DNA of 33,543 nt from a virus. The first letter of the stretch is position 1. The number at the start of each line of letters is the position of its first letter. Made by a program: the position numbers and the translations under genes. Below the pieces are notes generated by a model. The model ran no database searches, was not told where the DNA came from, and saw only the letters and a list, made by a program, of their open reading frames with translations. Where the stretch lies: the IMG/VR virus record IMGVR_UViG_3300000174_000003, positions 1-33,543 of that record. The stretch is one strand, 5' to 3'. Shown here piece by piece: positions 785-33,319 of the stretch.

Positions 785-1587
785 ACTAACTCCTTTATAT
801 TTAATTTTTCCCACAATTCATCTATAGCAATTTGAATTTCAAGTTTACCAGGTGCTTTTAACTCAACTATGTTTTCTCTTTTAGATAAGTTAGCAAGACC
901 ACCATCCCAAAAATGTATAAATATTTGTGGAATTCCTAGATAATGTGCTAATACACCTACTGAACTATGTGTTGATATAACCATATTACATGTTTTAAGT
1001 TCCTCATATACATCTATAAATGAATAACCATGAATAGGTATTGAATTAGGTATAGGTTGATCTGTAGCGAATCCAAATGACTTAACATCAGCAGGATAAT
1101 CTACTGCATATAAAGGTGCATAAGTTTTAAATCCACTGATTGAAGCTGGTTGAACTCCTATATATCCTTCACCTAAAGAATAATCCCCCACAATAACATC
1201 TGGTATGTTCATAGTAGCCCAAGGAACTGTAGTTAAATCTATACCCATATCATTACTAGAACTAAAAATACCATTTAAACTACTATCAAGTTCTTCTGGT
1301 TCTATAATAGCAATATAACTATCCTCATTATCATACATATTACCTATATGAGCAATAAATTTCTTAATAGAATTCATATCAGTATTTATCCTACCATCTA
1401 TAAACTCATTAGAATGTAACTTATCTACTAAACCCATATGTAACAACAACTTAGCAGCACCAGATTCATAACTACCATGAGCTAAATCAACTTTAATATT
1501 ATTATCTTGAAGCTTTTTCAATAATGGAATAGCATGAAAACAATCACCCACCCGTGTCCCACCGAATTTAAGAAGTACTTTACCCAA
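781..1587 (-). CDS. GT9-like (heptosyltransferase-type) glycosyltransferase
   Basis: 268 residues with GT-B character. The N-terminus MGKVLLKFGGTRVGDCFHA resembles the opening strand-turn of glycosyltransferase family 9, and the C-terminal part holds the typical segment VISTHSSVGVLAHYLGIPQ followed by IFIHFWDG, where family 9 has its nucleotide-sugar binding loop and a cheap-shot 'D/S-G-x-x-H-L/A' pattern. The start is a TTG, seven bases after AAGGAG; both lie inside the 3' end of the upstream HNH gene. It probably works with the large glycosyltransferase at 2686-5082. Donor and acceptor are unknown. The family call rests on motif resemblance only. Confidence 0.6.
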   Translation of the reverse strand: MGKVLLKFGGTRVGDCFHAIPLLKKLQDNNIKVDLAHGSYESGAAKLLLHMGLVDKLHSNEFIDGRINTDMNSIKKFIAHIGNMYDNEDSYIAIIEPEELDSSLNGIFSSSNDMGIDLTTVPWATMNIPDVIVGDYSLGEGYIGVQPASISGFKTYAPLYAVDYPADVKSFGFATDQPIPNSIPIHGYSFIDVYEELKTCNMVISTHSSVGVLAHYLGIPQIFIHFWDGGLANLSKRENIVELKAPGKLEIQIAIDELWEKLNIKELV

Positions 1588-2170
1588 TTAAAATCTCCTT
1601 TTCTAATTTTTTATTTTTCCATATTTCTTTTAACATATTTGAATGTGACTTCTTTCTATCTTCTGACCACACATTACCAAAATTTGGATTATCTTTACCA
1701 TAAAATCTTTTACCATACATAGGATTTTTACTACCTTTAGAGTCACCATTTTTTATTTTAGTTTTAGATATTAAATTTTTAGATTCTTCTGTATGTTTTT
1801 TACCTAACCAATATTTATTTCCTATATTATGTAATATAGAATGATCACCATGTTTCATTTTCTGTAAGTTATTTATATAATCATTCAACTCATTACCATC
1901 TTTATGATGTATTACATAACCATCTCCTTTAATTATAGGATCATTAATATTATATAAATTCCATACAAAATGATAAAATAAAATATCATTTTTACCTTTA
2001 TTTCCATATAAACCAATTAAATATTTTGAAATAAAAGAATCTATTACATGCCTTCTAGGTGTTTCAAAACCATGTTTAGCCAATCTACTTTTTAAATAAA
2101 CAGCATGTAAAATATCTTCCTTATTTACTATATTATTTTCAAGATCATACTTCAATAAAACCTTACTCAT
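1580..2170 (-). CDS. Free-standing HNH homing endonuclease (NUMOD-type)
   Basis: 196 residues. The HNH core is VIHHKDGNELNDYINNLQ, a classic His-His-Asp-Gly-x-x-x-N pattern around residue 85, followed by repeated GxxNPMYGK / GKDNPNFG segments typical of the DNA-binding NUMOD3 tail. The C-terminus (WSEDRKKSHSNMLKEIWK) is clearly related to that of the HNH protein at 17162-17722, so the two are paralogues. The gene sits between two unrelated genes and its last 8 bases overlap the TTG start of the next one, as expected for a selfish gene that landed between cistrons and now carries the neighbour's ribosome binding site in its 3' end. Confidence 0.85.
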   Translation of the reverse strand: MSKVLLKYDLENNIVNKEDILHAVYLKSRLAKHGFETPRRHVIDSFISKYLIGLYGNKGKNDILFYHFVWNLYNINDPIIKGDGYVIHHKDGNELNDYINNLQKMKHGDHSILHNIGNKYWLGKKHTEESKNLISKTKIKNGDSKGSKNPMYGKRFYGKDNPNFGNVWSEDRKKSHSNMLKEIWKNKKLEKEILIG

Positions 2171-2172
2171 AT

Positions 2173-2679
2173 TTATCCTTTCTTAGATCTTTTATCTCTA
2201 ATTTTTTGATTACCTTTTTCTAATTTCTTAACTAATTTTTTAAATCTCTTATTCATTTGAAGTAAACTGAAACTGAGAAAATCTCTAGCTACCATTTTCT
2301 CAGTTCCATTTATAATATAATCTACATAAGGTACTTTATTAGAGTCTACACCTACAGATAAAGTATCTTTCCTTTTAGTTTTAAAAATTTCTATATTATC
2401 TCTAAGATGACTTGATTGATCACCACCTTGTTTATGTATTTCTATAATACCATGACCAAGTACAGCTTTTATAGTAGACTTAGAAAAACCTTCCTTAGAA
2501 TAAGGATGACCTAGCTTTTTTAATTGAGATAAGGTATGATCATCTAGATTAGTATTCTTTTTGACCTCTTTCTTTAATTCTTTAGCCATTTCCTCAACGG
2601 TTTTAGTTGTACGTTTTCTAATACTCTTTGTAAAACCATCAAAAAAATCGTCATCTTTATTTCTTCTTCTTCTACCCAT
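2173..2679 (-). CDS. HK97 gp10-like head-tail / neck protein
   Basis: 168 residues, very basic at both ends (MGRRRRNK at the start, KRSKKG at the end). The middle resembles HK97-gp10-like tail-completion proteins: an amphipathic helix (VEEMAKELKKEVKKNT), then HPYSKEGF, a strand region with LSVGVD, and VDYIINGTEKMVARDFL, which matches the family's 'Y...v..GT..m.ARpFL' hallmark. Position, downstream of the connector and head-closure genes, agrees. The two intervening genes (glutaredoxin-like, glycosyltransferase) look inserted. No strong ribosome binding site precedes the ATG. Confidence 0.55.
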   Translation of the reverse strand: MGRRRRNKDDDFFDGFTKSIRKRTTKTVEEMAKELKKEVKKNTNLDDHTLSQLKKLGHPYSKEGFSKSTIKAVLGHGIIEIHKQGGDQSSHLRDNIEIFKTKRKDTLSVGVDSNKVPYVDYIINGTEKMVARDFLSFSLLQMNKRFKKLVKKLEKGNQKIRDKRSKKG

Positions 2680-2685
2680 AATATA

Positions 2686-5082
2686 TTAAATCAAACCTTC
2701 AAGGTGACCTTTCGAAACCTGACTTTGTGTTCCTACCATATCATCTATTAACTTTACATTTTCATCACAAAGTTTATAAAAAGGATGGTCTTGTTTTAGA
2801 ATTCCAGTAACCTTATTAAAATAAATTTGAGCTTTATTCAAATAGAGATATGCAAGATCTTTATTACATTGATAAAAATTATTATCTAATTCAACAGCTT
2901 GTATCAAATTCTCCTCTGCTAAATCAACAAAACCTTCTTCAAGATAATGAATAGCTATAGCATAATAAGGCCTTGGATCTTTAGGTGAATCCTTAATCTG
3001 TTTCTGATTCAACTTGAAATAAGTCTGCATCTTCTTTCTTATGTCTTTATCAGCTTTAAGATAACCAAAATGAAAGATTGACATAGGTGCTCTACCCACA
3101 GCAAACTTAATATTATTATTATTTATAGTTTCATGTACATAACCACTATAAGTAAAACCACATGATTTCTTAAATAATCTTACTGTTTCTGATAATGAAT
3201 ACCTAGTATCTTTCATAAGATTATTTACATAAAACATATAACCATCTAGACTTCCATCTAACATACGTCTTATTGTAGGTAGATCCTCAAGATGTTCATC
3301 TATATCCATATGTAGAATCCAATCAGATGTTACATGTTTAAGTGCTTCATTTCTAGCTTCTGCAAACTTCAACAACTTATCACCTGATTCATCTACTGTA
3401 TATAAATCATCTACATTTCCATTAACTACCTTACATCCGAATAACTCAGCTAACCAAACACTCTTATCTTCTGAACCTGTATCTAAGAGTACAGTCTCAT
3501 CTAGAAATGGTGTATATGATCTTAAAAAATCAAACAAAGATGGTTGCTCATTCTTCATTATAGTACATAAACTAATTGTACTATTCTCTATCCACTTACG
3601 TAGAATAATAGGATTCTCATTTATAAGATGTTTATAATCTTTATGACCTATCAAAGCTGGATTCTTATCTGTATCCATCTTCTCATACCACTCATATTTC
3701 CTCTGTCTTTGCTCTGGATTTACATAACCATAATGCTTAATCCTTATAGAAGATACTCTTGACAAATCTGGTGGTGTATAAGGAATATTACCAACATGGA
3801 ATGTACTCTTAGAACCCAAGAAGATATTAGGATCACTAGTCAACCTAACTAATCTATTACCATTCATGTTTTTCCATACATCACCTGCATTATAATGTTC
3901 TTCATCATTCCAGAATGTATAATAATGAACAGAATATGCTTGACACATAGGATCTGGAGTATTAATAAGTTTCTCCATATACTTTCTATCTACTTTATCT
4001 TCTACAACTTCATCTGCATCAAGAGAGAATACCCAATCCATATTTGCTTCTTTAGCCATATTTAATAATTCATTTCTATCTCGTCTTTCATCAAAACTTC
4101 TATCATGTTGTTTTAGTGTAACCTTACAAGTTAATTTTACTGTACGATCTATACCATCATCATCTTCTGGACTTAGTATACTTATATTACTACCCTGATA
4201 TTGTGTTATTTTATAAGGAGAATTATCATCCAATATAAATATATGATCTGCAAATGTGGAACTCTTCTCTAAAGTTCTAGCAAATATTTTTGCATCATAA
4301 TCATCTCTTATTTTAACCCTATATATAACACCTAAATCTTGATAATCATTTTTTCTTTGTCCATACTTTTTAAGCAAATCAATTGTATGTGCTGTACCTC
4401 TTTTTAGTTCTGGAATTCTATCTATAGTTTTTGATCCATAATGCCATACAAATATGTCCTTACATACTACTGTAACAAATCCAGCTTCATAAGCTCTAAC
4501 AGAAAAATCTACATCCTCACAACCAGCAAAAAATCTTTCGTCAAACTTACCTATCTTATCAAAAACTTCCCTATTTATAAACAAACATAATCCAGATACA
4601 ATACCTGTTGGTACAACCCTCCTATAATGCTGTTTATAAACATGTTTGGCAGTAGCTTCAAAATGACTTCTACTCTTACATTCTTGTTGTTGACCCCTCA
4701 TACCAACATAATTTGATGTTGGTGCAGCAATAGAAGCCATCTTTGTACCAGAAAGTCTTTCATATTCTTTACAATCAGTTTTAAACTTTTTCAAGAAACC
4801 ATCTGGTACTAAAGCATCATCATTCAATACTAATATCCACTCACCTGTAGATTTATCAATACCTTTATTTACAGCCTTACCAAAACCTTCATTCTCTTCA
4901 TTTGTTATTGTTATAATATCACTATTATCTTTTAAATATTCTTTAGTTCCATCTGTTGATGCATTATCTATTACAATTATTTCTACATCTTCAGACTTAG
5001 ATCCTTCTCTTACATAATTTATTGTTTCTACTAGGTGATTATAATTACTACTGGTGGGAATTACAACTGAATATTCGGACAT
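2686..5082 (-). CDS. Large three-domain family-2 glycosyltransferase with TPR-like tail
   Basis: 798 residues. Domain 1 (about 1-240) is a canonical GT2: VVIPTSS start, VIDNASTDGT, metal-binding LNDD near residue 88, and a family motif GCEDVDFSVRAYEAG near 188-202. Domain 2 (about 250-460) has SLDADE near 355; domain 3 (about 500-690) has CTIMKNE, LDTGSEDKS and HMDIDE near 593. Both later domains resemble SunS/glycan-extending GT2 modules. Residues about 705-760 form TPR-like helical pairs. The ATG at 5082, seven bases after GGAG, is preferred to a TTG one codon upstream. Three catalytic-looking domains in one chain suggest that it builds an oligosaccharide. Acceptor unknown; its place among head-tail genes hints at virion glycosylation, which is inference. 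Confidence 0.85.
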   Translation of the reverse strand: MSEYSVVIPTSSNYNHLVETINYVREGSKSEDVEIIVIDNASTDGTKEYLKDNSDIITITNEENEGFGKAVNKGIDKSTGEWILVLNDDALVPDGFLKKFKTDCKEYERLSGTKMASIAAPTSNYVGMRGQQQECKSRSHFEATAKHVYKQHYRRVVPTGIVSGLCLFINREVFDKIGKFDERFFAGCEDVDFSVRAYEAGFVTVVCKDIFVWHYGSKTIDRIPELKRGTAHTIDLLKKYGQRKNDYQDLGVIYRVKIRDDYDAKIFARTLEKSSTFADHIFILDDNSPYKITQYQGSNISILSPEDDDGIDRTVKLTCKVTLKQHDRSFDERRDRNELLNMAKEANMDWVFSLDADEVVEDKVDRKYMEKLINTPDPMCQAYSVHYYTFWNDEEHYNAGDVWKNMNGNRLVRLTSDPNIFLGSKSTFHVGNIPYTPPDLSRVSSIRIKHYGYVNPEQRQRKYEWYEKMDTDKNPALIGHKDYKHLINENPIILRKWIENSTISLCTIMKNEQPSLFDFLRSYTPFLDETVLLDTGSEDKSVWLAELFGCKVVNGNVDDLYTVDESGDKLLKFAEARNEALKHVTSDWILHMDIDEHLEDLPTIRRMLDGSLDGYMFYVNNLMKDTRYSLSETVRLFKKSCGFTYSGYVHETINNNNIKFAVGRAPMSIFHFGYLKADKDIRKKMQTYFKLNQKQIKDSPKDPRPYYAIAIHYLEEGFVDLAEENLIQAVELDNNFYQCNKDLAYLYLNKAQIYFNKVTGILKQDHPFYKLCDENVKLIDDMVGTQSQVSKGHLEGLI

Positions 5083-5104
5083 CAAGTGTCTCCTTTTCTA
5101 AATT

Positions 5105-5317
5105 CTAAATATCAATTTCATCATCTACTACTACAGGTGACTTCATACTATTTTCACATAATATTGAAAATGCTGCTACATCAATACTATCTCTATCTTC
5201 TGGTGGATTTTTTAATCTATATATACTTCTCTCTACAAACTCTATATTACATTTCTTATATTCCTTTTTTAAATTAACATATTTAGGACAACCATTTTCA
5301 CCAAAAATGTATTTCAA
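5105..5317 (-). CDS. Glutaredoxin/thioredoxin-like small protein
   Basis: 70 residues. The N-terminus MKYIFGENGCPKY places a CPxY redox-type motif at the end of the first strand, as in glutaredoxins; the second active-site Cys is Tyr, so it would act as a monothiol enzyme if active. The segment MKSPVVVDDEI resembles the cis-Pro strand (T/S-x-P-V-V-V) of the fold. The start is a TTG five bases after AAAGGAGG. It is the first gene after the promoter at 5349-5377 and is followed by the large glycosyltransferase. Role in the phage is unknown. Confidence 0.6.
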   Translation of the reverse strand: MKYIFGENGCPKYVNLKKEYKKCNIEFVERSIYRLKNPPEDRDSIDVAAFSILCENSMKSPVVVDDEIDI

Positions 5318-5348
5318 TTACACCTCCTTTACAATTACACAAAGGATT

Positions 5349-5377
5349 AGTATATCATAATATTAAAAATAAGTCAA
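5349..5377 (-). promoter_or_regulatory. Sigma70-type promoter with extended -10
   Basis: Minus-strand -35 TTGACT (5372-5377), 17-nt spacer, -10 TATACT (5349-5354) preceded by TGA, i.e. an extended -10 TGn. It lies in the 68-bp gap upstream of the glutaredoxin-like gene and would start a transcript for the redox/glycosyltransferase/neck genes. Confidence 0.75.
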
Positions 5378-5385
5378 CAACTAAA

Positions 5386-5976
5386 TTAAGCATTTGGAAT
5401 CTCTAATAATTCTGCTTCTATATGATTAATATTACCCATAATATCTGATGGAGAATTTATAGTTATTACCTCAAAAGTTCTACCAACTGCCCTAACATAA
5501 TCTTTAATTTTTATAGGAACATCAAAGCCAGTAAACAATATAGGTGCAGTATTTATTTCTATACCAGATCTAAGCTCATCAAATGATCTCTTTCTATTAC
5601 TAATACGACCTTTATAATTACTACCAACGACAGTTCTATATGTTATAGGAGCACCAGTTGGTGTACTCATGAAAAGATCAACAGTACCAACTGTAGCTTC
5701 ATCTGTTAAGTTATTTAAAATAACTGTAGATATTGTGGAATATGTATTTAACGAAACTAACTCACCATTTGATGGAAATGTTAATGATTCTGATGTACTA
5801 CCTTGTAAAGTTACACTACCAGATCCTGTAGTAAAACCATAAACCTTTACACCAATGTTAGCTTCTTCGCTTAATGTAAGTGAAACAGAGTTAGTCTGTA
5901 GAGGGGTACTCATTGTAGTAAGACCTGAAGTAATTGATTCTACAATGAACGTAGTTGAAAATAATCTTTCTATCAT
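5386..5976 (-). CDS. Head-closure-type protein with an extra N-terminal domain
   Basis: 196 residues from the ATG at 5976, which follows the connector stop at once; an ATG-less longer reading would add 20 residues of connector-overlapping sequence and is not preferred. The C-terminal half (from about residue 120) has the feel of head-closure/head-tail joining proteins: GRISNRKRSFDELRSG, a strand near FDVPIKIKDYV, AVGRTFEVITI, and a final HIEAELLEIPNA. The N-terminal half is Ser/Thr-rich beta sequence (SGLTTMSTPLQTNSVSL) and is not explained by that family. Placement directly after a connector supports a neck role. Assignment is moderate. Confidence 0.45.
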   Translation of the reverse strand: MIERLFSTTFIVESITSGLTTMSTPLQTNSVSLTLSEEANIGVKVYGFTTGSGSVTLQGSTSESLTFPSNGELVSLNTYSTISTVILNNLTDEATVGTVDLFMSTPTGAPITYRTVVGSNYKGRISNRKRSFDELRSGIEINTAPILFTGFDVPIKIKDYVRAVGRTFEVITINSPSDIMGNINHIEAELLEIPNA

Positions 5977-5977
5977 A

Positions 5978-6523
5978 TTATCTATTCTGATTATAAATTG
6001 GAGATTGAGTAGCGAAATGAGGATCTCTATACTCATTTAACATATTTAAAATATCTTTTATTTCACTTCCTAAAGAAGTATTTGTTTCGTATTTAAAATC
6101 ACCTATACTCATAGATTTTATACCTACTGATGTTCTTCTTGTCCAAAACAAATTTACTAATTCCATACACACAGTCTTAACTATGTCAGGTGGATTCTGA
6201 CCAAACGAAACACTTAAACTAAAATCACCGGAAAATGAACCGTCTAGTACTATAGTACCAATATCATCTTTTCTTTGATAATCCACACCAGATTCTATAC
6301 TAGATATACCAACTATAGGCCATTTTCTTAAAACAATTATATCCAAATCATTTACATTATATAATGTTTCATCTGAACCATACTCTACTTCAAAATTATA
6401 ACCAACAAACTCATCTATTTTATTTGAAGATGATTTAAGAAACGTATAAAGTAAATCATCTGTACTTGTATCTGTTACATTTAAATAATTTTTTACTTCT
6501 GTTAAAGTAGCATAAATAGCCAT
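5978..6523 (-). CDS. Head-tail connector protein (HK97 gp6-like)
   Basis: 181 residues. The N-terminus YATLTEVKNYLNVTDTSTDD followed by LLYTFLKSSSNKIDEFVGYNF is the standard opening of phage gp6-like/QLRG connectors: an alpha helix set that packs under the portal ring. Later strands (LRKWPIVGISSIESG) and the helix DIVKTVCMELVNLFWTRRT also fit the family. A good AAGGGG site lies six bases before the ATG. Its neighbours are neck and virion genes, agreeing with the role of joining the portal to the tail. Slightly longer than minimal family members. Confidence 0.75.
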   Translation of the reverse strand: MAIYATLTEVKNYLNVTDTSTDDLLYTFLKSSSNKIDEFVGYNFEVEYGSDETLYNVNDLDIIVLRKWPIVGISSIESGVDYQRKDDIGTIVLDGSFSGDFSLSVSFGQNPPDIVKTVCMELVNLFWTRRTSVGIKSMSIGDFKYETNTSLGSEIKDILNMLNEYRDPHFATQSPIYNQNR

Positions 6524-6533
6524 GTTTTACCCC

Positions 6534-6842
6534 TTATATATTACCGTACACATCAAAGTTAGCAACACTAGATTTCCACTCACCTGAAGATGATATTATA
6601 TGTGCTTGAACAGACCATAAACCTGACATATTTATATCACCAGAAATTGTTGCGTATTGAACTTTTCCATCAGTACCGTCTGTAGAAAATAATGCTGTTT
6701 TTGTTAATATAGTACCATCAGATTTTTTAAAAATTATTTCTTTAGTTGTAGCTGATGATATATCTACAACAGTTGTATTATCCTTTAATGTTATAACAAA
6801 TAAAACATTTATGTCACCGACATGAACTTCTTTAACTGCCAT
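6534..6842 (-). CDS. BppU-like / Ig-like virion protein
   Basis: 102 residues from the ATG at 6842, chosen because GGAGAGG lies four bases upstream; a longer in-frame start at 6908 lacks a site and would add a hydrophobic stretch encoded by the neighbouring gene's 3' end. The sequence (EVHVGDINVLFVITLKDN, then VVDISSATTKEIIFKKSDG, then SGLWSVQAHIISSSGEW) has the strand pattern of BppU N-terminal/baseplate-type Ig-like domains that are common in phage virion proteins. Exact location in the particle is unknown. Confidence 0.5.
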   Translation of the reverse strand: MAVKEVHVGDINVLFVITLKDNTTVVDISSATTKEIIFKKSDGTILTKTALFSTDGTDGKVQYATISGDINMSGLWSVQAHIISSSGEWKSSVANFDVYGNI

Positions 6843-6843
6843 A

Positions 6844-6990
6844 TTACCTCTCCAAATCAAAATTCTTAGTTTGAGTAATATATAAAGTAATACTATATGT
6901 ATCTCCAACTATGATAACTTTATCCCACTCAAAATCATTAGTAGTAAACCATAAAAAATCATCAGTATTTTTATATATAAAATCAGCCAT
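6844..6990 (-). CDS. Small hypothetical virion-region protein
   Basis: A 48-residue ORF (MADFIYKNTDDFLWFTTNDF... ending FDLER) with GGAG five bases before its ATG. It ends one base before the next gene's start, so it fits the tight spacing of the cluster. Acidic and aromatic, no membrane segment. Function not recognised; it may be a partner of the BppU-like protein downstream. Confidence 0.65.
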   Translation of the reverse strand: MADFIYKNTDDFLWFTTNDFEWDKVIIVGDTYSITLYITQTKNFDLER

Positions 6991-13674: not shown

Positions 13675-14871
13675 TTACTTTACTTGAGATGCATTAAAAT
13701 CCATCAACATACCTAACTTATCTCCAGGTGCTGCTTCTTTATATTTATCAGATCTTAAGAACTTTTCCTTCTCACTCAAATTCTTCTCAACATCTCTCTC
13801 ATCTTCCTTATGTTCATCAAAACCAACACCTTTTCTTATAGGAAGATTATTAGAAATCATACTTTTCAAATCAGAAAGACTTTTTCTTATTTCAAGAATT
13901 TCTTTATCTTCATCCACAGACTTAGAAATTTCTTTAGTTTCATCTTCTTTCTTCTCATACTTATTCTCATCAACAGACTTAGAAATATCTTCCTTCTTTG
14001 ATTCATCAGCTACTTTAGACTTTGATACATCAACAACAACTTCTGAAAGTGCTGTAACTGTTTCTTTAATTTCACCAATAAGATTACCTATTGAATCATT
14101 AATAGCCTTTGTAATATCATCTATACTAACTGAACTTTTAGATACATCTTCAGTTATATCTGGTGATGTTGCTTCAAGTGCTTTCAAAAAATCAAGTACA
14201 CTTCTAAGTGTGTCAACCTTAACACCATCTGCATCTGAACTCAAAGCATCTTCTACAGAAGTAACAAGAATTTCAAGTTGTTTAGCATCCCTATCAATAG
14301 TTTCCTCTTGACTCTTTTCAATCTTCTTTTCTTTAGTTTTAGCTTTATTAGCCATACTATTCTCCTCACTAAATTCTTTCATTGACTTCTCAACATAAAA
14401 TGCTAATGTTCTTGCACTAGCATCTGCTGGTATTGTTACCAATGAAGTTTCAAATATTTTCATCTGGTTTACATACTGTACTACCTTATCTAAACCTTTA
14501 ATAAATTTCTCAGTAAAATCCAATGCAGTACCACTAATACTGAATTTACTAAGAACACCTTCTTGGACCTTCTGCCAAATATCAGGAACAGTTTTTGAAA
14601 TTAAACACTTTATCCATAAAGCTCTTTGTTCAGGCATATATTTAACATCAATAATCTTACCTATTTCTTTATCCCTATCATGATTATAAAGTAATGTAGT
14701 ATATTTCTTTAAATCATCTTCTGCACCTATCAATGCTTCCTCAGAAATATATAAACCATCTACATCTAGATCAGCAGTAGTGGCAATTCCTTCTATAATC
14801 CATTTACCTTCTTGATCTGCAAATCTCTTTACATCAATATTTGCATCAAATTTTACTTCTTTATTACTCAT
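13675..14871 (-). CDS. Prohead protease fused to a scaffold-like coiled coil
   Basis: 398 residues. Residues 1-165 are an HK97-type prohead serine protease: GKWIIEGIATTADLDVDG, then YNHDRDKEIGKI with His64, SKFSISGTAL with Ser111, and ETSLVTIPADASA. Residues about 170-398 are highly charged helices rich in Lys, Glu, Ser and Asp (KSVDENKYEKKEDETKEISK), as expected for a scaffolding domain that is digested before capsid expansion. The ATG has AAGGAG seven bases upstream, downstream of the structured RNA copy at 14892-14959. An internal start for a scaffold-only product (near MANKAKTKEK) is possible. Confidence 0.85.
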   Translation of the reverse strand: MSNKEVKFDANIDVKRFADQEGKWIIEGIATTADLDVDGLYISEEALIGAEDDLKKYTTLLYNHDRDKEIGKIIDVKYMPEQRALWIKCLISKTVPDIWQKVQEGVLSKFSISGTALDFTEKFIKGLDKVVQYVNQMKIFETSLVTIPADASARTLAFYVEKSMKEFSEENSMANKAKTKEKKIEKSQEETIDRDAKQLEILVTSVEDALSSDADGVKVDTLRSVLDFLKALEATSPDITEDVSKSSVSIDDITKAINDSIGNLIGEIKETVTALSEVVVDVSKSKVADESKKEDISKSVDENKYEKKEDETKEISKSVDEDKEILEIRKSLSDLKSMISNNLPIRKGVGFDEHKEDERDVEKNLSEKEKFLRSDKYKEAAPGDKLGMLMDFNASQVK

Positions 14872-14891
14872 AAGAATACTCCTTGAATAAT

Positions 14892-14959
14892 TTCCTATAA
14901 AAAATGTATAAAGGCAACTACTAGGAATGTAGCTTTCGTGTTATAGGCACTAGCCCTTA
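14892..14959 (-). ncRNA. Structured RNA element, copy 1 (three-way junction + pseudoknot)
   Basis: Read on the minus strand: P1 TAAGGGC (14953-14959) pairs with GCCTTTA (14909-14915); P2 is a GTG/CAC hairpin (14938-14950) with a 7-nt loop; a fixed GAAAG linker follows; P3 is CTAC/GTAG (14918-14932) with loop ATTCCTA; loop bases TTCCTA (14922-14927) can pair with TAGGAA (14892-14897) downstream. The ribosome binding site of the protease gene begins 8 nt later. The copy at 17742-17808 has the same plan, with compensatory changes in P2. Riboregulator, ribozyme or processing site are all possible; no known family recognised. Confidence 0.6.
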
Positions 14960-14963
14960 ATTC

Positions 14964-15962
14964 TTACTCGTTAATGAATCCACCTGTATTAGATATCGCA
15001 TCCACCTCCGATTGCATCCAATGGTTCTTACTTATTGTACTTTCAATGAACTCACCAACTGATATAGAGAAGTAATGTGGATCAGGTTTCATATTATCTT
15101 TAAATATAATAAGAATACCAACAGGAGTATCTAAACTTCTAATAACAGTATTTTGTAATATTTTATTGTCAACAAGACCCCTTATAAACTTGTTAAAATT
15201 TTCAATAGTATACTTACGTGTACCACTATCATCTGAGAAATAATAACCACCTGAATATGCGTCACAAACTTGTTCAGCAGATACCATATGTTCTAGTACT
15301 CTACATCTCATATCATGAAAATACTGACAATATTCACACTTACCAGTTTCAAAATCATGTTGTCTTAGTCTAACTTCTGGATCTGTAATAAACCTAAAAA
15401 ACTGTTTAGTCTTAGACACACTTCTCTTTTTCCATTCCCCATCATTATCAATACCATAACCAGCATCTGTTAATGCTTTCATAGCAACATTTGTACAAGC
15501 AGACTGTGTAGAGTTGTTATCTACATCACTAGGTTTCTTATTACTTCTATCTTCTATACACTTATTATATGCTTTAGATACAATACTCTTAGCTTCTTTA
15601 GGTGCATTTCCAATATCAGGTGCTCCATCCTTACCCCTCTTTATGTCACATCCATTACCACTTCTATCTAGAGGAACATCATATCTTCTACCTCTTTGTT
15701 CAAACTCCTCTATAATTTCATTTTGCATTTTCTCTAAATCTTCTTTACTGTAACCATAAACATGTTTACCAGTTCTTACAGTAATTTCATAAAATGCTTT
15801 AATTATAGATTCTCTAAAAAGTAACTCAGCATCATCTAAATCAGCAACAGTAACACTAGCACTTAGATCAAATGTGTCAGGCATCTCCTCATCAACTTCT
15901 TCGTATACAGATGCATCCCTATTTAGTTTTTCATACTGTTCTTTTAAAAACTTATATCCCAT
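14964..15962 (-). CDS. Head-region protein with HiPIP-like cysteine motif
   Basis: 332 residues between the inserted cassette and the prohead protease, GAGAGG before its ATG. The C-terminal half holds a four-Cys signature, CEYCQYFHDMRCRVLEHMVS followed by AEQVCDAYSGG, which resembles high-potential iron-sulfur or zinc motifs of phage head proteins ('CxxCxyf..C......C..y'). The middle (DGAPDIGNAPKEAKSIVSKA, with further Cys) is of unknown fold. Position between portal and protease suggests a minor head protein. No MuF motif can be defended. Function unknown. Confidence 0.55.
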   Translation of the reverse strand: MGYKFLKEQYEKLNRDASVYEEVDEEMPDTFDLSASVTVADLDDAELLFRESIIKAFYEITVRTGKHVYGYSKEDLEKMQNEIIEEFEQRGRRYDVPLDRSGNGCDIKRGKDGAPDIGNAPKEAKSIVSKAYNKCIEDRSNKKPSDVDNNSTQSACTNVAMKALTDAGYGIDNDGEWKKRSVSKTKQFFRFITDPEVRLRQHDFETGKCEYCQYFHDMRCRVLEHMVSAEQVCDAYSGGYYFSDDSGTRKYTIENFNKFIRGLVDNKILQNTVIRSLDTPVGILIIFKDNMKPDPHYFSISVGEFIESTISKNHWMQSEVDAISNTGGFINE

Positions 15963-15965
15963 AAA

Positions 15966-16301
15966 TTACCTCTCAATACCTAAAATAAAATCTAATTTAT
16001 CAATTGGATTAGTAAATTCACAAATAGATCTTTCATCAGAATACTTACAACCATCACGTTTAGCAGCATCCTTTAAACTTTTTAAACTTACATTTAATAC
16101 TTTAGCAAAACCGCTAAGACGTTCTATAGGTGGACAATTAATATTTCCACTCAGTATATTATTAACAGTAGCAGATGATATACCAGCAGCTTTACCCATA
16201 GAATCTTTTATATCGCCTTTTGACTTAGTATCAGATACTTTGGAATCTATTTTAGAATTTAATAAACTACTTAAACCAGAACCCCTATAAACATCACCCA
16301 T
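15966..16301 (-). CDS. XRE-type helix-turn-helix protein
   Basis: 111 residues. The central part DSMGKAAGISSATVNNILSG followed by PPIERLSGFAKVLNVSLKSL has the XRE/Cro pattern: helix 2 'GKAAGIS', recognition helix 'SATVNNILSG', and the later helix 'RLSGFAKVLNVS'. Such proteins bind operators, but here it is embedded in a late cluster, which is odd for a main phage repressor; a local regulator of the inserted cassette is more likely. AGGAG lies six bases before the ATG, inside the 3' end of the upstream gene (8-nt overlap). Confidence 0.65.
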   Translation of the reverse strand: MGDVYRGSGLSSLLNSKIDSKVSDTKSKGDIKDSMGKAAGISSATVNNILSGNINCPPIERLSGFAKVLNVSLKSLKDAAKRDGCKYSDERSICEFTNPIDKLDFILGIER

Positions 16302-17175
16302 ATTTAACTCCTATTTTATCTAAAACTTTACCAATACCTAAATTACTTATACAATATTTATATAACTTATTATGAGTTTTTTTCATAATCTGGAATTTAT
16401 TTGGTTTCTCTAAATGAACACCAAACATACAAAACATACAACCTGTATTTTTATAACCTATATCATATATACTAGAATATTTTAAATTATTTAATTTAAT
16501 GTATTCCCAAATATCTTTTTCTAACCAAATAGATAAAGGTAATGATTCTTTCTTTTTACCATCAAAAATATTACAACCTTTTCTTAAATACTTCTGTTTT
16601 CTTAAAGCACTATCATAAACCATAGTTCCTATAAACGGTAATAATCCATACTCTTTTTCAAACTTACGTGAAGGCCATTTTTTTAATGCATCACAACACT
16701 TATAACTTATTTTAAAATTAGAATTTATTAAATACTTCCATTTTTCTGGTATTTTACCTGACTTATTTTTATCACCATATAATCTTTTGTTTCTTAACTT
16801 ATCAGATTTTGTATTTATAACTTCAAATAATTTTTGACTAACTTCTTTAGATACAATAGGATAACCATAATGATTTAATACTTCTTTAAAATTCATTTTA
16901 GGTTTTACCCAAACTACATTATCTACACTTTTTACAAATTTAATAATCTCTGGATACTCTAAGCCAGTATTTAAAAACATAGCTTTAGTATTAGGATATT
17001 TCTTTCTAATTATATCTAAAAGAACAGTAGAATCTTTACCACCTGAAAATGATACATATACTTTTCCATTATAATGCCTATAAAATTCTTCAATACGTCT
17101 TTCAGAAAACATAATCTTAGCTTGTAATGGTAAGGATTGTTTCTGTTTTAAATAATAAGAATCAATTTTTAACAA
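16294..17175 (-). CDS. PAPS-reductase-family protein (ATP-pyrophosphatase fold)
   Basis: 293 residues. The PP-loop SFSGGKDSTVLLD (residues 42-54) and LNTGLEYPEI are diagnostic of the PAPS reductase/adenine nucleotide alpha-hydrolase family. A CCDALKKWP segment and a NTGCMFCMFG pair of cysteines near the C-terminus resemble the iron-sulfur ligands of the DndC/PAPS-reductase-like group. Members can reduce sulfate or nucleotide adducts, or modify DNA and tRNA. In a phage DNA modification or counter-defence is a reasonable guess only. Starts with TTG without a clear ribosome binding site, inside the 3' end of the HNH gene, so translation probably depends on coupling. Confidence 0.75.
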   Translation of the reverse strand: MLKIDSYYLKQKQSLPLQAKIMFSERRIEEFYRHYNGKVYVSFSGGKDSTVLLDIIRKKYPNTKAMFLNTGLEYPEIIKFVKSVDNVVWVKPKMNFKEVLNHYGYPIVSKEVSQKLFEVINTKSDKLRNKRLYGDKNKSGKIPEKWKYLINSNFKISYKCCDALKKWPSRKFEKEYGLLPFIGTMVYDSALRKQKYLRKGCNIFDGKKKESLPLSIWLEKDIWEYIKLNNLKYSSIYDIGYKNTGCMFCMFGVHLEKPNKFQIMKKTHNKLYKYCISNLGIGKVLDKIGVKYG

Positions 17176-17722
17176 TTTGTAATTTTCTTTTTTTCCACGA
17201 TTCTTTTAGCATAATAGAATGTCTATCTTTTCTTTCATTTGACCATTTTCTACCATAATTATAATTGCTTTCACCACTCACAGCTTTAGATATTTTATTT
17301 TTTGTTTCTTTAGATCTTTTTAATCCATAGTTAGGAGCATCTTTACCAAATTTTCCATACATATGGTTCTTTTCTCCTGTACGTGATAAAGATAAATTCT
17401 TCCTATGCTCATTTGTTATTTCTTTACCATACATAGCATTTCTTTTACCAGTACTATGCCAAATTCCATGTTCTTTTCTAGTTAATTTTATTAAATTACT
17501 AATATTATCATTTAATTTATTACCATCTATATGATGTATAACGCAACCATCACCGTAAACTACTTTATTATCTGGATTATAAAGATTCCAAATAGATTTA
17601 GCTAACATAACAGAAGCATAATACTTTACTCCATCATGTATTATTGAAAAACTACAAAATCTTCTACCATCTTTCATACGACAACAAGCAATTAATTCTT
17701 TTACTCTATCTTCTTTGTTCAT
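17162..17722 (-). CDS. Free-standing HNH homing endonuclease (NUMOD-type), second copy
   Basis: 186 residues. HNH core VIHHIDGNKLNDNISNLIKL near residues 61-80, then several NUMOD3-like segments (GKRNAMYGKEITNEHRKN, GEKNHMYGKFGKDAPNYG, GESNYNYGRKWSNERKDRHS). Paralogue of the protein at 1580-2170. AAGGAG lies before its ATG, just after the structured RNA copy at 17742-17808. Its 3' end overlaps the TTG start of the PAPS-reductase-like gene by 14 nt. Homing endonucleases of this type spread themselves by cutting alleles lacking the insertion; here the gene sits between portal and head genes. Confidence 0.85.
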   Translation of the reverse strand: MNKEDRVKELIACCRMKDGRRFCSFSIIHDGVKYYASVMLAKSIWNLYNPDNKVVYGDGCVIHHIDGNKLNDNISNLIKLTRKEHGIWHSTGKRNAMYGKEITNEHRKNLSLSRTGEKNHMYGKFGKDAPNYGLKRSKETKNKISKAVSGESNYNYGRKWSNERKDRHSIMLKESWKKRKLQIVKN

Positions 17723-17741
17723 ATTATTCTCCTTGAATAAT

Positions 17742-17808
17742 TTCCTATGAAAATGTATAAGGGCGACTACTAGGAATGTAGCTTTCGAGCGATCTACTCT
17801 AGCCCTTA
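17742..17808 (-). ncRNA. Structured RNA element, copy 2 (three-way junction + pseudoknot)
   Basis: Minus strand: P1 TAAGGGC (17802-17808) with GCCCTTA (17758-17764), seven Watson-Crick pairs; P2 GAG/CTC (17787-17799) with a 7-nt loop; linker GAAAG; P3 CTAC/GTAG (17767-17781) with loop ATTCCTA; TTCCTA (17771-17776) can pair with TAGGAA (17742-17747). It starts just after the portal stop and ends before the HNH ribosome binding site. Compared with copy 1, P2 changes U-A to A-U and its loop differs fully, while GAAAG, P3 and the pseudoknot are unchanged. That is the pattern of selection on RNA structure. Confidence 0.6.
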
Positions 17809-17821
17809 ATTTTTATTACTT

Positions 17822-21398: not shown

Positions 21399-23471
21399 CT
21401 ACTTCTTTTCTTCTTCTACAACTTTAGGTTTTGTTATATCTTTTAACATAGAACCGTCTTCTAACTCTTTGTTAAAATATTCTTTAAACTGTTTAATTCT
21501 TAACTTTTGACCTTTGTACTCGAAAAAACCACCCTTATGAAACACTATACTATCAAGTTTAATACCTAAAGTTATAGTATCCATAACTTTATCAATACCA
21601 TGTGAATAAGATATTTCTACTTCTACAGGACTACGTGGTCTATCCATCTTATTCTTTACTATTGATACTCTACAACTCATACCAATAGGATCTTCAGATT
21701 TCTTATTTTCTGGATGTATAAAGCCTGTATTAGCTGTCTTTAATCTAACAGAAGAATAAAACTTTACAGCATTACCATGTGGTGTTGTTTCAGGATTACC
21801 AAATACAATACCTATTTTTTCTCTTACTTGAGATACTAATATCAATGCTACTTTACTATTCCATATTAACTTATTAATTTTTCTTAATGCAGTAGAGACA
21901 ATCCTTGCTTCTGACGCTAATGCTTTTGTATCTTCTGTTTTTCCAGCTTCAAATTGTTTCTTACATCCTAATACTGATAATGAGTCTACAACTAAACAAG
22001 CAGGTACTTTATTCCTTTTAGCAAATTCACAAGCTAATTCTATTTTATCAAAAGCATCTTCAAGATAATCAGAATCAAGTATTAACAATTTAGAATCATC
22101 TATACCTAATTTCTTAGACCAACCAGATAACATAGAATTCTCAGTATCTAGCATTATACCAACGCCACCATTCTTCTGACAAGATGCTAATAAATTTGCA
22201 GCAAATATACTATTATGTGTTACTATAAAATCTTTAGTAACAAAAAGTTTACTTTTATGTGCTACTGATATACAAGTTACTTCTTTCTTGTTCTTAATAG
22301 ATACAATTTTTTGTAACCTTCTACCATTAGAACCTCTTTTATAAAATTTATATCTGTCAACTTTTCTTTTTAACCTGAATGGTACTAGATTATTGAAATT
22401 AATTATAACACGATAACTTAATCTACCACGTTTCTTAACTCCTTTATGCGTATAGAAAGTGTATCTACTTGTTACTTTACACTTACCACCAAGAGACAAA
22501 ACAATAAATTTTACATTTTCTGACAATTGCTTTGATGTTGTACTATATTCCATAAAACCACTAACAGAACAATGACCATCAGAATCCATTAATCCTCTAA
22601 GAATTTCTAACCTAACATTAATATTATTAAATAAGTATTCTCTAGGAACAAATTTTTCATATGATTTCTTACCTAGCAAACCAACATTTCTAAGTTTATC
22701 ACACATACCTGAAATAGTATATGAGTACTTACCACAAGCATCCTTTCTACATATACTACCAAGAAACTTAGGTATTTCTACGTCAGCAGTTGTTAGTTTT
22801 ACAACGCACTGATTACCTGTACTATCTTTCTTTTTGTAATCAGCTAAATGACCACCACCTATTAACAATCCCAATAAATAAGGATCAATACTAACTTTTT
22901 GTTTATTAAATTTAATAGGTTCTACTAGTGGTATTTCTACACGATATTTCTCTTTTGGTATTAAACCACCATAATCAATTATATCATTAGTAGACATAAC
23001 TTTATAAGTTCCATATTTTTTAGAAACTTTACCTGTACCTAACTTCTCTTTTAATCTTTCTCTTCTACCTTTTACATACCACAAATGATCTTCACATGAT
23101 TCAATTTCAGAACCATCATCAAATATAAAATTATAGCACTTTCTTTTACCTCTATTAAATACACCTGTCACCTTAGTTTTACTACCATCTTTTGAAAATA
23201 CATAATCACCTATCTTTAAATCTGATATTTTTGACCATCCGTCAGGTGTCATAACTGGTGTATCATTTGGTAGTGCTTTTCCGGTACTTTGCCACCCGAA
23301 TATCTCTGTTAATCTACCATAAGGAATTCCACCACCTAAAGAATAGTCAAGAGCACCACTACCAGTACTAAGAAATCCTAATTTATGTTCTGGTAGTGGT
23401 TTCTCTTTTAACATAGAACCAGATTTTCCAAATGTATCTAATAAATCTTCATATATTTTATCTTGGTTCAT
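21399..23471 (-). CDS. recA: RecA/UvsX-type recombinase precursor with intein
   Basis: 690-residue precursor. Extein: FLSTGSGALDYSLGGGIPYG and FGWQSTGK (58-65), then after the intein SIFAANLLASC completing the P-loop; Walker B CLVVDSLSVLG; and VSQVREKIGIVFGNPETTPH, the RecA-family loop region before KFYSSVRL. After splicing the recombinase would have 335 residues, normal for the family. It catalyses strand exchange together with the SSB and UvsY-like proteins encoded just upstream. ATG start with AAGGGG five bases before. The acidic-basic tail (KPKVVEEEKK) is usual. Splicing is needed for ATP binding because the intein splits the P-loop. Confidence 0.9.
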   Translation of the reverse strand: MNQDKIYEDLLDTFGKSGSMLKEKPLPEHKLGFLSTGSGALDYSLGGGIPYGRLTEIFGWQSTGKALPNDTPVMTPDGWSKISDLKIGDYVFSKDGSKTKVTGVFNRGKRKCYNFIFDDGSEIESCEDHLWYVKGRRERLKEKLGTGKVSKKYGTYKVMSTNDIIDYGGLIPKEKYRVEIPLVEPIKFNKQKVSIDPYLLGLLIGGGHLADYKKKDSTGNQCVVKLTTADVEIPKFLGSICRKDACGKYSYTISGMCDKLRNVGLLGKKSYEKFVPREYLFNNINVRLEILRGLMDSDGHCSVSGFMEYSTTSKQLSENVKFIVLSLGGKCKVTSRYTFYTHKGVKKRGRLSYRVIINFNNLVPFRLKRKVDRYKFYKRGSNGRRLQKIVSIKNKKEVTCISVAHKSKLFVTKDFIVTHNSIFAANLLASCQKNGGVGIMLDTENSMLSGWSKKLGIDDSKLLILDSDYLEDAFDKIELACEFAKRNKVPACLVVDSLSVLGCKKQFEAGKTEDTKALASEARIVSTALRKINKLIWNSKVALILVSQVREKIGIVFGNPETTPHGNAVKFYSSVRLKTANTGFIHPENKKSEDPIGMSCRVSIVKNKMDRPRSPVEVEISYSHGIDKVMDTITLGIKLDSIVFHKGGFFEYKGQKLRIKQFKEYFNKELEDGSMLKDITKPKVVEEEKK
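22212..23276 (-). mobile_element. Intein in RecA P-loop, class 3 hallmarks, LAGLIDADG endonuclease
   Basis: Residues 66-420 of the precursor (355 aa) interrupt GWQSTGK/SIFAAN. It begins with Ala66, not Cys or Ser, and ends THN with Ser421 as +1. It has the non-contiguous W-C-T set of class 3 inteins: Trp131 two residues after block-B His129, Cys400 at the block-F Asp position (EVTCISV), and Thr418 before His419-Asn420. In class 3 splicing the block-F Cys makes the first nucleophilic attack. The middle holds a two-motif LAGLIDADG endonuclease: LLGLLIGGGHL (199-209; usual Asp replaced by Gly) and LRGLMDSDG (291-299; Asp kept). Confidence 0.88.
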
Positions 23472-23480
23472 TGTAACCCC

Positions 23481-24284
23481 TTAAACAAGTGATTCTAATT
23501 CTTTTAACAATTTTGCTTTTCTATCTTCGGCACTAACATCAACTTCTTTATTTTCTTCAACATTATCTACCTCTTTAGCAGATGTATCAATTAGTGTAGG
23601 AACTTCATTAGGAACTTCATTAGTTTTTTCACCTGTAATATTATTAACGACATCTTTCAATTCAAAAGCATCTTTGAAATCCATAATACCATCTAGTTCA
23701 AACATACCATCTATCCAAGCATCAGACTGTTTAGGATCATCAGACAGTGTAGAATTATTAGGTGATACCTTTACAACATAACTTGTATCTAGTTTCTGAC
23801 CAGTTCTTTCAATAGTTACATCTCTACCTTCATCAACATCTGTAATATCACCGTAATCTTCATCGTACAAATAACTAAGAATGTTTTCATAAAGTTGAAT
23901 ACCAGAACGCATTATCTGCACACCTTTTTCTTCTTCACCTCTTACAATAATATTGTAATAAATACTCTTCTTAGCACTAAACTTACTAGCTAAAGCATCT
24001 TTACCACGACCTCTCAACTCTTTAGTAAGCTCACACAAAGGACATTCTTTATTAATAACAGTAAGACAATTAACCATTCTATCATTAGGTGGTATATTCC
24101 AATGTGACCTACACTCAAAAGCTATATCACCAGCTTCACTCCAAGGTGGAAGTATTCTAATCTTACTATTACCTTCTGGTATCTTCCACATGGGTAATAG
24201 ATTCCTTTGTGCTTCCTCCTGCAACCTTTGCTTTGTTTCTTTTGCTCTACTTGAATTTACCTTATATATTGTTCTTTTAGCCAA
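23481..24284 (-). CDS. Single-stranded DNA-binding protein, T4 gp32-like
   Basis: 267 residues. Core features: IRILPPW (42-48), a zinc site formed by His61, Cys73, Cys81 and Cys84 (SHWNIPP, NCL, CPLC), close to the His-Cys-Cys-Cys set of gp32, then SIYYNIIVRG strand and ILSYLYDEDYG. The C-terminal about 60 residues are strongly acidic, as in SSBs that recruit partners. Start is TTG behind AAGGAGG. In the same operon as recA and a UvsY-like protein, so it coats single-stranded DNA during replication and recombination. Confidence 0.8.
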   Translation of the reverse strand: MAKRTIYKVNSSRAKETKQRLQEEAQRNLLPMWKIPEGNSKIRILPPWSEAGDIAFECRSHWNIPPNDRMVNCLTVINKECPLCELTKELRGRGKDALASKFSAKKSIYYNIIVRGEEEKGVQIMRSGIQLYENILSYLYDEDYGDITDVDEGRDVTIERTGQKLDTSYVVKVSPNNSTLSDDPKQSDAWIDGMFELDGIMDFKDAFELKDVVNNITGEKTNEVPNEVPTLIDTSAKEVDNVEENKEVDVSAEDRKAKLLKELESLV

Positions 24285-31872: not shown

Positions 31873-32070
31873 TTATTTTCTTTTTAAATATTTATTATGT
31901 ATTGGTTTATTTCTTAAAACTTTAATAATTGTATCTTTATATCTAGTATTTTTACCTTTACCAACATAAAACGGTAAAAATACTAACTCTTTATATTTAG
32001 AATTATTAAATAAAGATCTACCATCACAATAAACATAAACGTAATAGTTATTCTGTTCTTTTATTTCCAT
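31873..32070 (-). CDS. Truncated GIY-YIG endonuclease
   Basis: 65 residues from the ATG at 32070, inside the ligase 3' end (23-nt overlap). YYVYVYCDGRS and later FLPFYVGKGKNTRYKD match the two strands and loop that give the family its name, with the following Arg. A complete domain of about 90 residues also needs a distal Glu and Asn; the chain stops after NKYLKRK, so those are missing. Probably the remnant of a homing endonuclease, likely inactive. Confidence 0.7.
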   Translation of the reverse strand: MEIKEQNNYYVYVYCDGRSLFNNSKYKELVFLPFYVGKGKNTRYKDTIIKVLRNKPIHNKYLKRK

Positions 32071-33319
32071 AATTATGTACAAATACTGGGAATCTTAGAG
32101 ATATTCCACCTTTCTCATTAACTGTTTCTTCAAAATATCTAACTTTTATTACCTTACCAATAATTTCATTAGGATTCTTATAATAACACTCTCTTTGTTC
32201 TTTAGTAAACCCACTACCTACTTTAACTGTATTCCCATTATGACTAATCTCTACAGCAGATAATGTCATTCTTCCTATATCTTTACCATTCTCAAAGAAT
32301 CTAATTTCATCATTAATAACACCTTTAACTTCATACTCTGAATCAATAAATGATTTTACTTTAAGTAAGTCATTAGATCTTTTACCTTTATAACCTACAT
32401 TCTTTCTAAGCATAACACCTTCATAACCTTTTTCTTTTGCTTCTACCTCTAATTCTTTTAACTCTTCTTTACTACTAACTATAGTTTGTGAAAGTTTCTC
32501 TGTGGTATTACAAATTGGTATTCTTTTCAATCTTTCTGAAAATATAACACTAGATGATTTACTATTAAATTCTTCTGTAGTTAAAGCATCGAATATAAAG
32601 AACTTAGGATTTCTTATATTATGATTCTTCTTCTTTATTTCCTTCATAACACCTTGGAAATCTTCTTTATTATCCTTATCTACTATACATACCTCACCAT
32701 CAAATACAATATTTTTAAGACCTAATTGATAAAGATTTAGTTTCAATACACTTAAAGTAGTGAATAATTTCCCTGTCCTTGATAGAAACTTAATCTCACC
32801 ATATTCATCTATCTTACAAATACATCTTACACCATCTAACTTTCTACTACCATACCACTCATCTTTATAGTCTACTAACTTCTCTTCATATTTATTTGCA
32901 AGTGCTACTTTGAACTCTGGTATAAATCCTGGAACTACTTTATTAATAATAGATGCATTAGCTCTAGTCTCAAGATCCTTATCTATAATATTATATATTA
33001 GATCTCTATGTGTCTGATTATTAAATATGAAAGTTTTTACTGATCTTAGAGCATCATGACCTGTCAATTTTCTACTACAAAGATCGTCTAGTAGAATAAA
33101 CAAACTACCTGTAGATACACCAACTGGACTTTTATCAAACTTTTTTACTTTATCACTTGTTATACCATAAGTTTTATCTTCATCATTTGTGTAAAGTAAT
33201 ACTTTCATTATGAATTCATTACATATATACTTCTTTAATATTTCCTTCTTTTTATTTGAAGATGGTGTTGACTTCATATCATCAACAAATTTTTGTAAGT
33301 TTTCAAAATCATTGTTCAT
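32048..33319 (-). CDS. ATP-dependent DNA ligase
   Basis: 423 residues with all nucleotidyltransferase motifs: motif I SRKLDGVRC with Lys160 as the AMP-accepting residue, motif III FDGEV (206-210), motif IV EGVMLRK, motif V LLKVKSF. The N-terminal 150 residues are helical, as in T4-like ligases. The C-terminus FVHNYGNKRTE follows the family's 'SLRFPxF' phrase and was probably rewritten by the insertion downstream (see 31546-31638). No strong ribosome binding site is seen before the ATG at 33319. Seals nicks in replication with the family-A polymerase. Confidence 0.9.
   Translation of the reverse strand: MNNDFENLQKFVDDMKSTPSSNKKKEILKKYICNEFIMKVLLYTNDEDKTYGITSDKVKKFDKSPVGVSTGSLFILLDDLCSRKLTGHDALRSVKTFIFNNQTHRDLIYNIIDKDLETRANASIINKVVPGFIPEFKVALANKYEEKLVDYKDEWYGSRKLDGVRCICKIDEYGEIKFLSRTGKLFTTLSVLKLNLYQLGLKNIVFDGEVCIVDKDNKEDFQGVMKEIKKKNHNIRNPKFFIFDALTTEEFNSKSSSVIFSERLKRIPICNTTEKLSQTIVSSKEELKELEVEAKEKGYEGVMLRKNVGYKGKRSNDLLKVKSFIDSEYEVKGVINDEIRFFENGKDIGRMTLSAVEISHNGNTVKVGSGFTKEQRECYYKNPNEIIGKVIKVRYFEETVNEKGGISLRFPVFVHNYGNKRTE

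Follow-up and report, generated by a model that had tools for sequence, protein, structure and literature searches.

A repeated three-way-junction leader before a homing-type HNH gene and a prohead protease gene in a phage genome

Background

The window analysed here is a 33,543-nt stretch of viral DNA (IMG/VR record IMGVR_UViG_3300000174_000003, positions 1 to 33,543), in which a non-coding sequence recurs in front of two genes, a homing-type HNH endonuclease gene and a prohead protease gene. The question that this locus raises is whether the repeated sequence is an RNA whose fold has been kept by selection and, if so, what such a leader would do for the genes that follow it. A preliminary description, made from the sequence alone, had proposed two copies of a new-looking structured RNA placed before late-gene ribosome sites.

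Structured leaders of phage homing endonucleases are a known kind of element. In T4-type homing endonucleases translation is regulated by RNA structures at the ribosome-binding site (RBS), and illegitimate repair at microhomology has been proposed for their ectopic spread (PMC2988022).

Methods

Relatives of the phage were reached through an alignment of RecA (69% relatives) and then through alignments of TerL and MCP, which extended the set to the wider clade. Single-protein searches with the portal protein and RecA returned near-identical phages or one remote RecA only, the HNH alignment returned a single remote relative among genome contigs, and the terminase alignment of remote relatives was too diverse to be used as a search query.

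The four sequences compared (C1 and C2 of the window, L153 and L152 of relatives) amount to three distinct sequences plus a variant that differs by a single base, and all of them belong to one phage clade. In the substitution simulation, we considered as a positive outcome the presence of no broken pair together with at least one compensatory pair; the simulation follows a simple neutral substitution model and was applied to two comparisons, C1-C2 and C1-L153. A covariance model was built from C1, C2, L153 and L152. A loose descriptor of the fold was discarded as a search tool because it was swamped by chance matches.

Results

Two copies of one element

BLAST within the window identified the two copies as a real repeat, 86% identical (E=3.8e-25), and the recurrence reported in the preliminary description is thus confirmed, with both copies on the minus strand:

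14870..14969, minus strand: copy 1 (C1), a 100-bp insertion separating the ChaB-like gene from the prohead protease gene
17723..17818, minus strand: copy 2 (C2), the leader between the portal gene and the HNH gene

Of 81 positions, 11 are different between the two copies, and 7 of these lie in the helix named P2 below. C1 is found in several independent assemblies, which excludes an assembly error for this copy. The placement before late-gene ribosome sites is right for the prohead protease, which is a late structural gene, but not for C2, which precedes an HNH endonuclease.

Fold and covariation

The proposed fold is borne out in both copies and comprises P1 (7 bp), P2 (3 bp, with a 7-nt loop) and P3 (4 bp, with the loop AUUCCUA):

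14909..14959, minus strand: C1 three-way junction; P1 14953-14959 with 14909-14915, P2 14948-14950 with 14938-14940, P3 14929-14932 with 14918-14921
17758..17808, minus strand: C2 three-way junction; P1 17802-17808 with 17758-17764, P2 17797-17799 with 17787-17789, P3 17778-17781 with 17767-17770

The folded leader, about 90 nt in size, contains the Shine-Dalgarno (SD) sequence, and its whole arrangement (P1, P2, P3, pseudoknot and SD) also holds in a third, diverged copy from a related phage (L153). Of the conserved GAAAG that had been proposed, GAAA stands as the core, but the final G does not, L153 having GAAAU.

A count of pairs on the alignment found both previously noted changes to be real: P2 has a compensatory change from U-A to A-U, and P1 a C-to-U wobble. 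In the four-sequence alignment the former is located at pair 21-31, A-U is replaced by G-C at pair 40-50 of P3, and G-U occurs as a variant at two pairs, one of these being added by L153. The P3 switch is a second compensatory pair, also added by L153. No pair of P1-P3 is broken in any of the four sequences, and P2 keeps its pairing through the changes while its loop varies.

As for the significance of the covariation, which the preliminary description had left to be evaluated, the core alignment of three sequences reached -15.0 kcal/mol, where column shuffles yielded -4.9 +/- 2.2 (z -4.57, p 0.001), and the substitution simulation gave p ~0.01 in both comparisons. Single sequences folded weakly (z -0.96 and -2.07), shuffling of the pairs gave a modest result (109/500 for pairs changed on both sides), and the minimum-energy fold of L153 alone departs from the consensus in P2/P3.

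Over the element C2 and L153 are 80% identical, and the identity of the window copies to L153 is about 80-85% over 81 columns; in the same comparison (window versus L153) the fourfold sites of the portal, TerL, HNH, protease and MCP genes have an identity of 43-62%. A non-coding element that is better conserved than fourfold sites is under constraint, and this conservation well above synonymous sites, together with the third diverged copy, supports the selection on RNA structure that had been argued from the two window copies. Since a G-U pair corresponds to a C-A mismatch in the opposite strand, a coding-strand RNA is favoured over a DNA hairpin. Confidence stays moderate because the element is so narrowly distributed, being known from one clade and as three distinct sequences.

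Pseudoknot and Shine-Dalgarno sequence

14892..14927, minus strand: C1 candidate pseudoknot; P3 loop UUCCUA 14922-14927 with UAGGAA 14892-14897
17742..17776, minus strand: C2 candidate pseudoknot; 17771-17776 with 17742-17747
14879..14884, minus strand: C1 SD AAGGAG, serving the protease ATG at 14869-14871
17723..17741, minus strand: C2 SD hairpin AUUAUUC-AAGGA-GAAUAAU, with the SD AAGGAG (17729-17734) in and next to the loop

Both copies contain the sequences of the 6-bp pseudoknot (UUCCUA/UAGGAA) and AAGGAG, and the UAGGAA that had been placed just upstream of the latter is exactly 7 nt from it. The pseudoknot pairs are invariant, with zero covariation, and one pair is broken in L152, so that we regard the pairing of the P3 loop with UAGGAA only as plausible.

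The SD hairpin of C2 has a 7-bp A/U stem, which L153 preserves with two of the pairs changed to G-U (p 0.001); C1 is without the 3' arm of this hairpin. The predicted cost of opening the SD is 1.2 to 4.4 kcal/mol overall, and 1.2-3.6 kcal/mol in C2 and L153, in which the SD is in the hairpin loop; these values do not indicate a strong sequestration.

Searches for relatives and known families

A strict exact-motif scan of viral contigs returned near-identical phages only, and looser scans of the same type returned, among the matches listed, chance matches without P3/P1 pairing, with the exception of L153. BLASTN against named phages gave chance matches only, of about 20-30 bases. The search with the covariance model, as the preliminary description had suggested, covered 1.28 Mb of fetched loci and the full records of 14 related contigs; no further credible copy was found in these sequences. 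Weak matches such as L154:16188 were rejected, P1 and the pseudoknot being broken.

No copy had a match in Rfam at gathering, and the matches found at E up to 10 were at chance level. A look through the main text of a survey of 104 motifs (PMC2864571) turned up nothing comparable. Judged by Rfam and the collections searched, the element is indeed new-looking, and it appears to be an undescribed RNA known from one small virus group. No tRNA-like structure was found by ARAGORN. The core of the hammerhead family is CUGAUGA, and a hammerhead-like reading of the element (GAAA...UC) was discarded because this core is absent. A scan for sigma-70-type promoters returned none at C1 and two weak, near-chance matches at C2, and the sequence showed no TATAAATA.

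The HNH gene and its leader across relatives

17162..17722, minus strand: free-standing homing-type endonuclease gene, HNH_3 and NUMOD3 (Pfam, PHROGs)

The HNH protein (186 aa) has HNH_3/NUMOD3 domains only, RuvC being absent (Pfam). The combination of an HNH domain, DNA-binding repeats and a sporadic occurrence between conserved genes assigns the gene to the free-standing homing-type endonucleases, with cleavage and homing as putative activities. Its homologue in L153 is 66% identical and has the same leader. The element is present in three relative loci, L153, L178 (same contig as L153) and L152, where it is 82-84% identical to the window copies and is located after the portal gene and before the HNH gene. 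Hence C2 and the L153/L152 copies are directly upstream of an HNH_3/NUMOD3 gene, whereas C1 is not. L151 has neither the HNH gene nor the element, though it is close to L153 (TerL 89%), and in L154 and its kin the portal gene is joined directly to the PAPS reductase gene, with no HNH gene or leader there. Since L153 and L152 carry both and L151 and L154 neither, leader and HNH gene were gained and lost together.

The 3' end of the HNH gene (17162-17175) overlaps the PAPS-reductase gene, seemingly removing its usual ATG: the start is TTG at 17175 in the window versus ATG in L154 and L071. A second HNH/NUMOD3 gene (window 1580-2170) is without this leader, and there is a short GIY-YIG-like ORF (window 31873-32082), so the phage carries several homing-type genes. 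The RecA-like gene (window 21399-23471) is split by an intein that follows the Walker A motif (WQSTGK / SIFAANLL). Several small zinc-ribbon-like ORFs, which are paralogous and have in common a motif like 'xxPxHIPxxQxxKYL', recur in the phage (window 27685-28796) and are also present in L294 and L295, and a tandem repeat of GGAAGATATTTTA-like units was seen in a longer contig (L293:13130-13300, IMGVR_UViG_3300037875_000252).

Insertion of C1 at the prohead protease start

13675..14871, minus strand: prohead protease gene (Pfam Peptidase_S78; PHROG head maturation protease), predicted to start from the C1 leader
14964..15962, minus strand: ChaB-like gene that precedes C1 and whose 3' end holds the decayed old protease SD and start (GGTGGA...ACGAG)

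Relative to L168, C1 is a clean 100-bp insertion with GAGTAA in both flanks (14964-14969 and 14864-14869). At the C1 position of L168 the ChaB-like and protease genes overlap as ATGAGTAA, and C1 is absent at that junction from L168, L151, L153 and L177; an overlap of the two genes is seen in relatives other than L168 as well. The old protease SD is GGAGGA in L168 and GGTGGA in the window, the old start is ATG in L168 and ACG in the window, and in the latter the leader AAGGAG stands 7 nt from the protease ATG. With the native SD and start decayed, the leader AAGGAG is therefore expected to supply initiation now.

In this region L168 and the window are identical as far as 15955 and from 13158, with a lower, mosaic identity between these points. 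A co-conversion tract centred on C1 was set aside as proof of homing, because further diverged blocks between the window and L168 exist beyond this tract. We also set aside the possibility that C1 was recently copied from C2 within this lineage, given their 11/81 differences in an otherwise nearly identical background; such a divergence, within a background largely identical to L168, suggests that C1 was probably brought in with a recombined segment. L168 begins at window position 16643, and L009, from the same sample, ends at 16646 and carries C2; as the two adjoin, that population is probably C2-positive and C1-negative.

Strong mosaicism between close phages is also seen at window 2461-6989, a block with 92% identity to L168 that adjoins stretches of near identity. 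In a sister clade (L071:15502-17099, L073, L154, L157, L170 and kin) a single reading frame joins the ChaB-like N-terminus to the prohead protease; in the window, L151, L153 and L168 they are two genes and the ChaB-like protein is longer.

Discussion

The explanation that we favour, with a confidence somewhat above even, builds on the repeat, the conserved fold, the link with the HNH gene, the insertion with its empty site and the decay of the old SD and start. The element would be a structured leader from which translation of a mobile HNH gene is initiated, and a copy of this leader would have been captured by an essential head gene. Precisely, the leader would fold into the three-way junction, the P3 loop would pair with UAGGAA just 5' of the SD, the HNH copies would present the SD in the A/U hairpin loop, and in this way the leader would probably limit or time HNH translation. 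A leader copy without the HNH gene, moved perhaps by endonuclease-driven or microhomology repair, would have been inserted between the ChaB-like and prohead protease genes and would have entered this lineage through recombination. At that junction an independent start from the leader would have taken the place of the coupled protease start. What seems to be new is the stand-alone inserted leader copy serving an essential gene.

Among known systems, HEARO or IscB omega RNA is likewise a structured RNA beside an HNH-nuclease gene, with some copies without the ORF. No HEARO covariance match was found here, the protein has HNH_3 and NUMOD3 with no RuvC, and the RNA differs in being only ~90 nt long and in containing the SD. 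The leaders of I-TevI, I-TevII, I-TevIII, segB and Aeh1 mobE are structured, contain the SD and stand right before a phage homing-type endonuclease gene (PMC2988022), as does the element before the HNH gene; these precedents, the place of the element and its SD make it fit that kind of leader, and on this analogy we infer that the fold regulates translation. Leaders of the I-TevI type probably delay or limit translation, and the same may be presumed for this element. They are, however, hairpins with a sequestered RBS and a late promoter inside (PMC2988022), whereas here a three-way junction with a putative pseudoknot has its SD predicted in a loop and not firmly sequestered, the sigma-70-type scan gave no match better than near chance, and the element also stands alone before a head gene. 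No leader described in that paper combines these architectural features. The leader of seg43(25) of Aeromonas phage 25 is alike in having a stable structure just upstream of a homing-endonuclease RBS that is not buried, but it is a single stem for which neither a pseudoknot nor other occurrences are reported (PMC2988022); the present element would be pseudoknotted and has a second copy.

A broader and tentative extension of the captured-leader explanation is that of a mobile translation-start cassette, in which the leader would spread alone between gene junctions and be taken over by essential genes, turning coupled into separately controlled translation, possibly under the HNH protein.

The main rival, which we hold to be unlikely, is an operator for a protein: either HNH or the phage SSB would bind the pseudoknotted leader and repress translation in a gene 32-like way, and C1 would put the protease under the same control. 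In the T4/T2 gene 32 leader, gp32 first binds a pseudoknot and next an A/U-rich stretch that covers the RBS (PMC3014915), and here too the stretch from core to SD is A/U-rich and conserved, with the unpaired GAAA and the loop conserved as a binding site would be. The phage does encode an SSB (23481-24284; PHROG single strand DNA binding protein), but this gene is without such a leader, which argues against SSB autoregulation; moreover, the gene 32 pseudoknot consists of two coaxially stacked helices before the SSB gene (PMC3014915), whereas here a three-way junction precedes the HNH and protease genes.

Less likely still is a DNA signal (an HNH operator, a mimic of the homing site or the end of a mobile unit) with an incidental RNA fold. 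The element travels with the HNH gene and is inserted elsewhere, the C1 complement also meets the loose fold descriptor, and I-TevI has, in front of its own ORF, an operator that it binds and that is similar to its homing site (PMC2988022). Nevertheless, the G-U wobbles suit a coding-strand RNA alone, the pairing of P2 is kept while its loop varies, the SD and its spacing to the start belong to the conserved unit, and the core fold (z -4.57) likewise speaks against a DNA signal.

Many small aptamers and ribozymes have a three-way junction, a pseudoknot and a conserved unpaired core. All of these, the pseudoknot as a candidate, occur here next to an SD, with the same core fold score, but we consider a small-molecule riboswitch or a self-cleaving RNA improbable, in view of the chance-level Rfam matches of every copy, the very narrow distribution and the controlled genes (HNH and protease), which point to no metabolite; nor does anything in the analysis favour the processing site that the preliminary description had raised. 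That the element is a copied leader without structural function, its pairing a relic or chance, would agree with only three distinct sequences and weak single-sequence folding, but it is very improbable for a non-coding element conserved above fourfold sites, with compensatory changes and zero broken P1-P3 pairs.

For the captured leader, the locus offers a site-exact case in which the leader of a selfish endonuclease is inserted before an essential capsid gene and the native translation start is displaced, with empty-site alleles in nearly identical phages available for comparison. If the leader is regulatory, a pseudoknotted three-way-junction leader would join the few known phage translational operators, and the locus would illustrate a way for homing elements to rewire phage gene expression.
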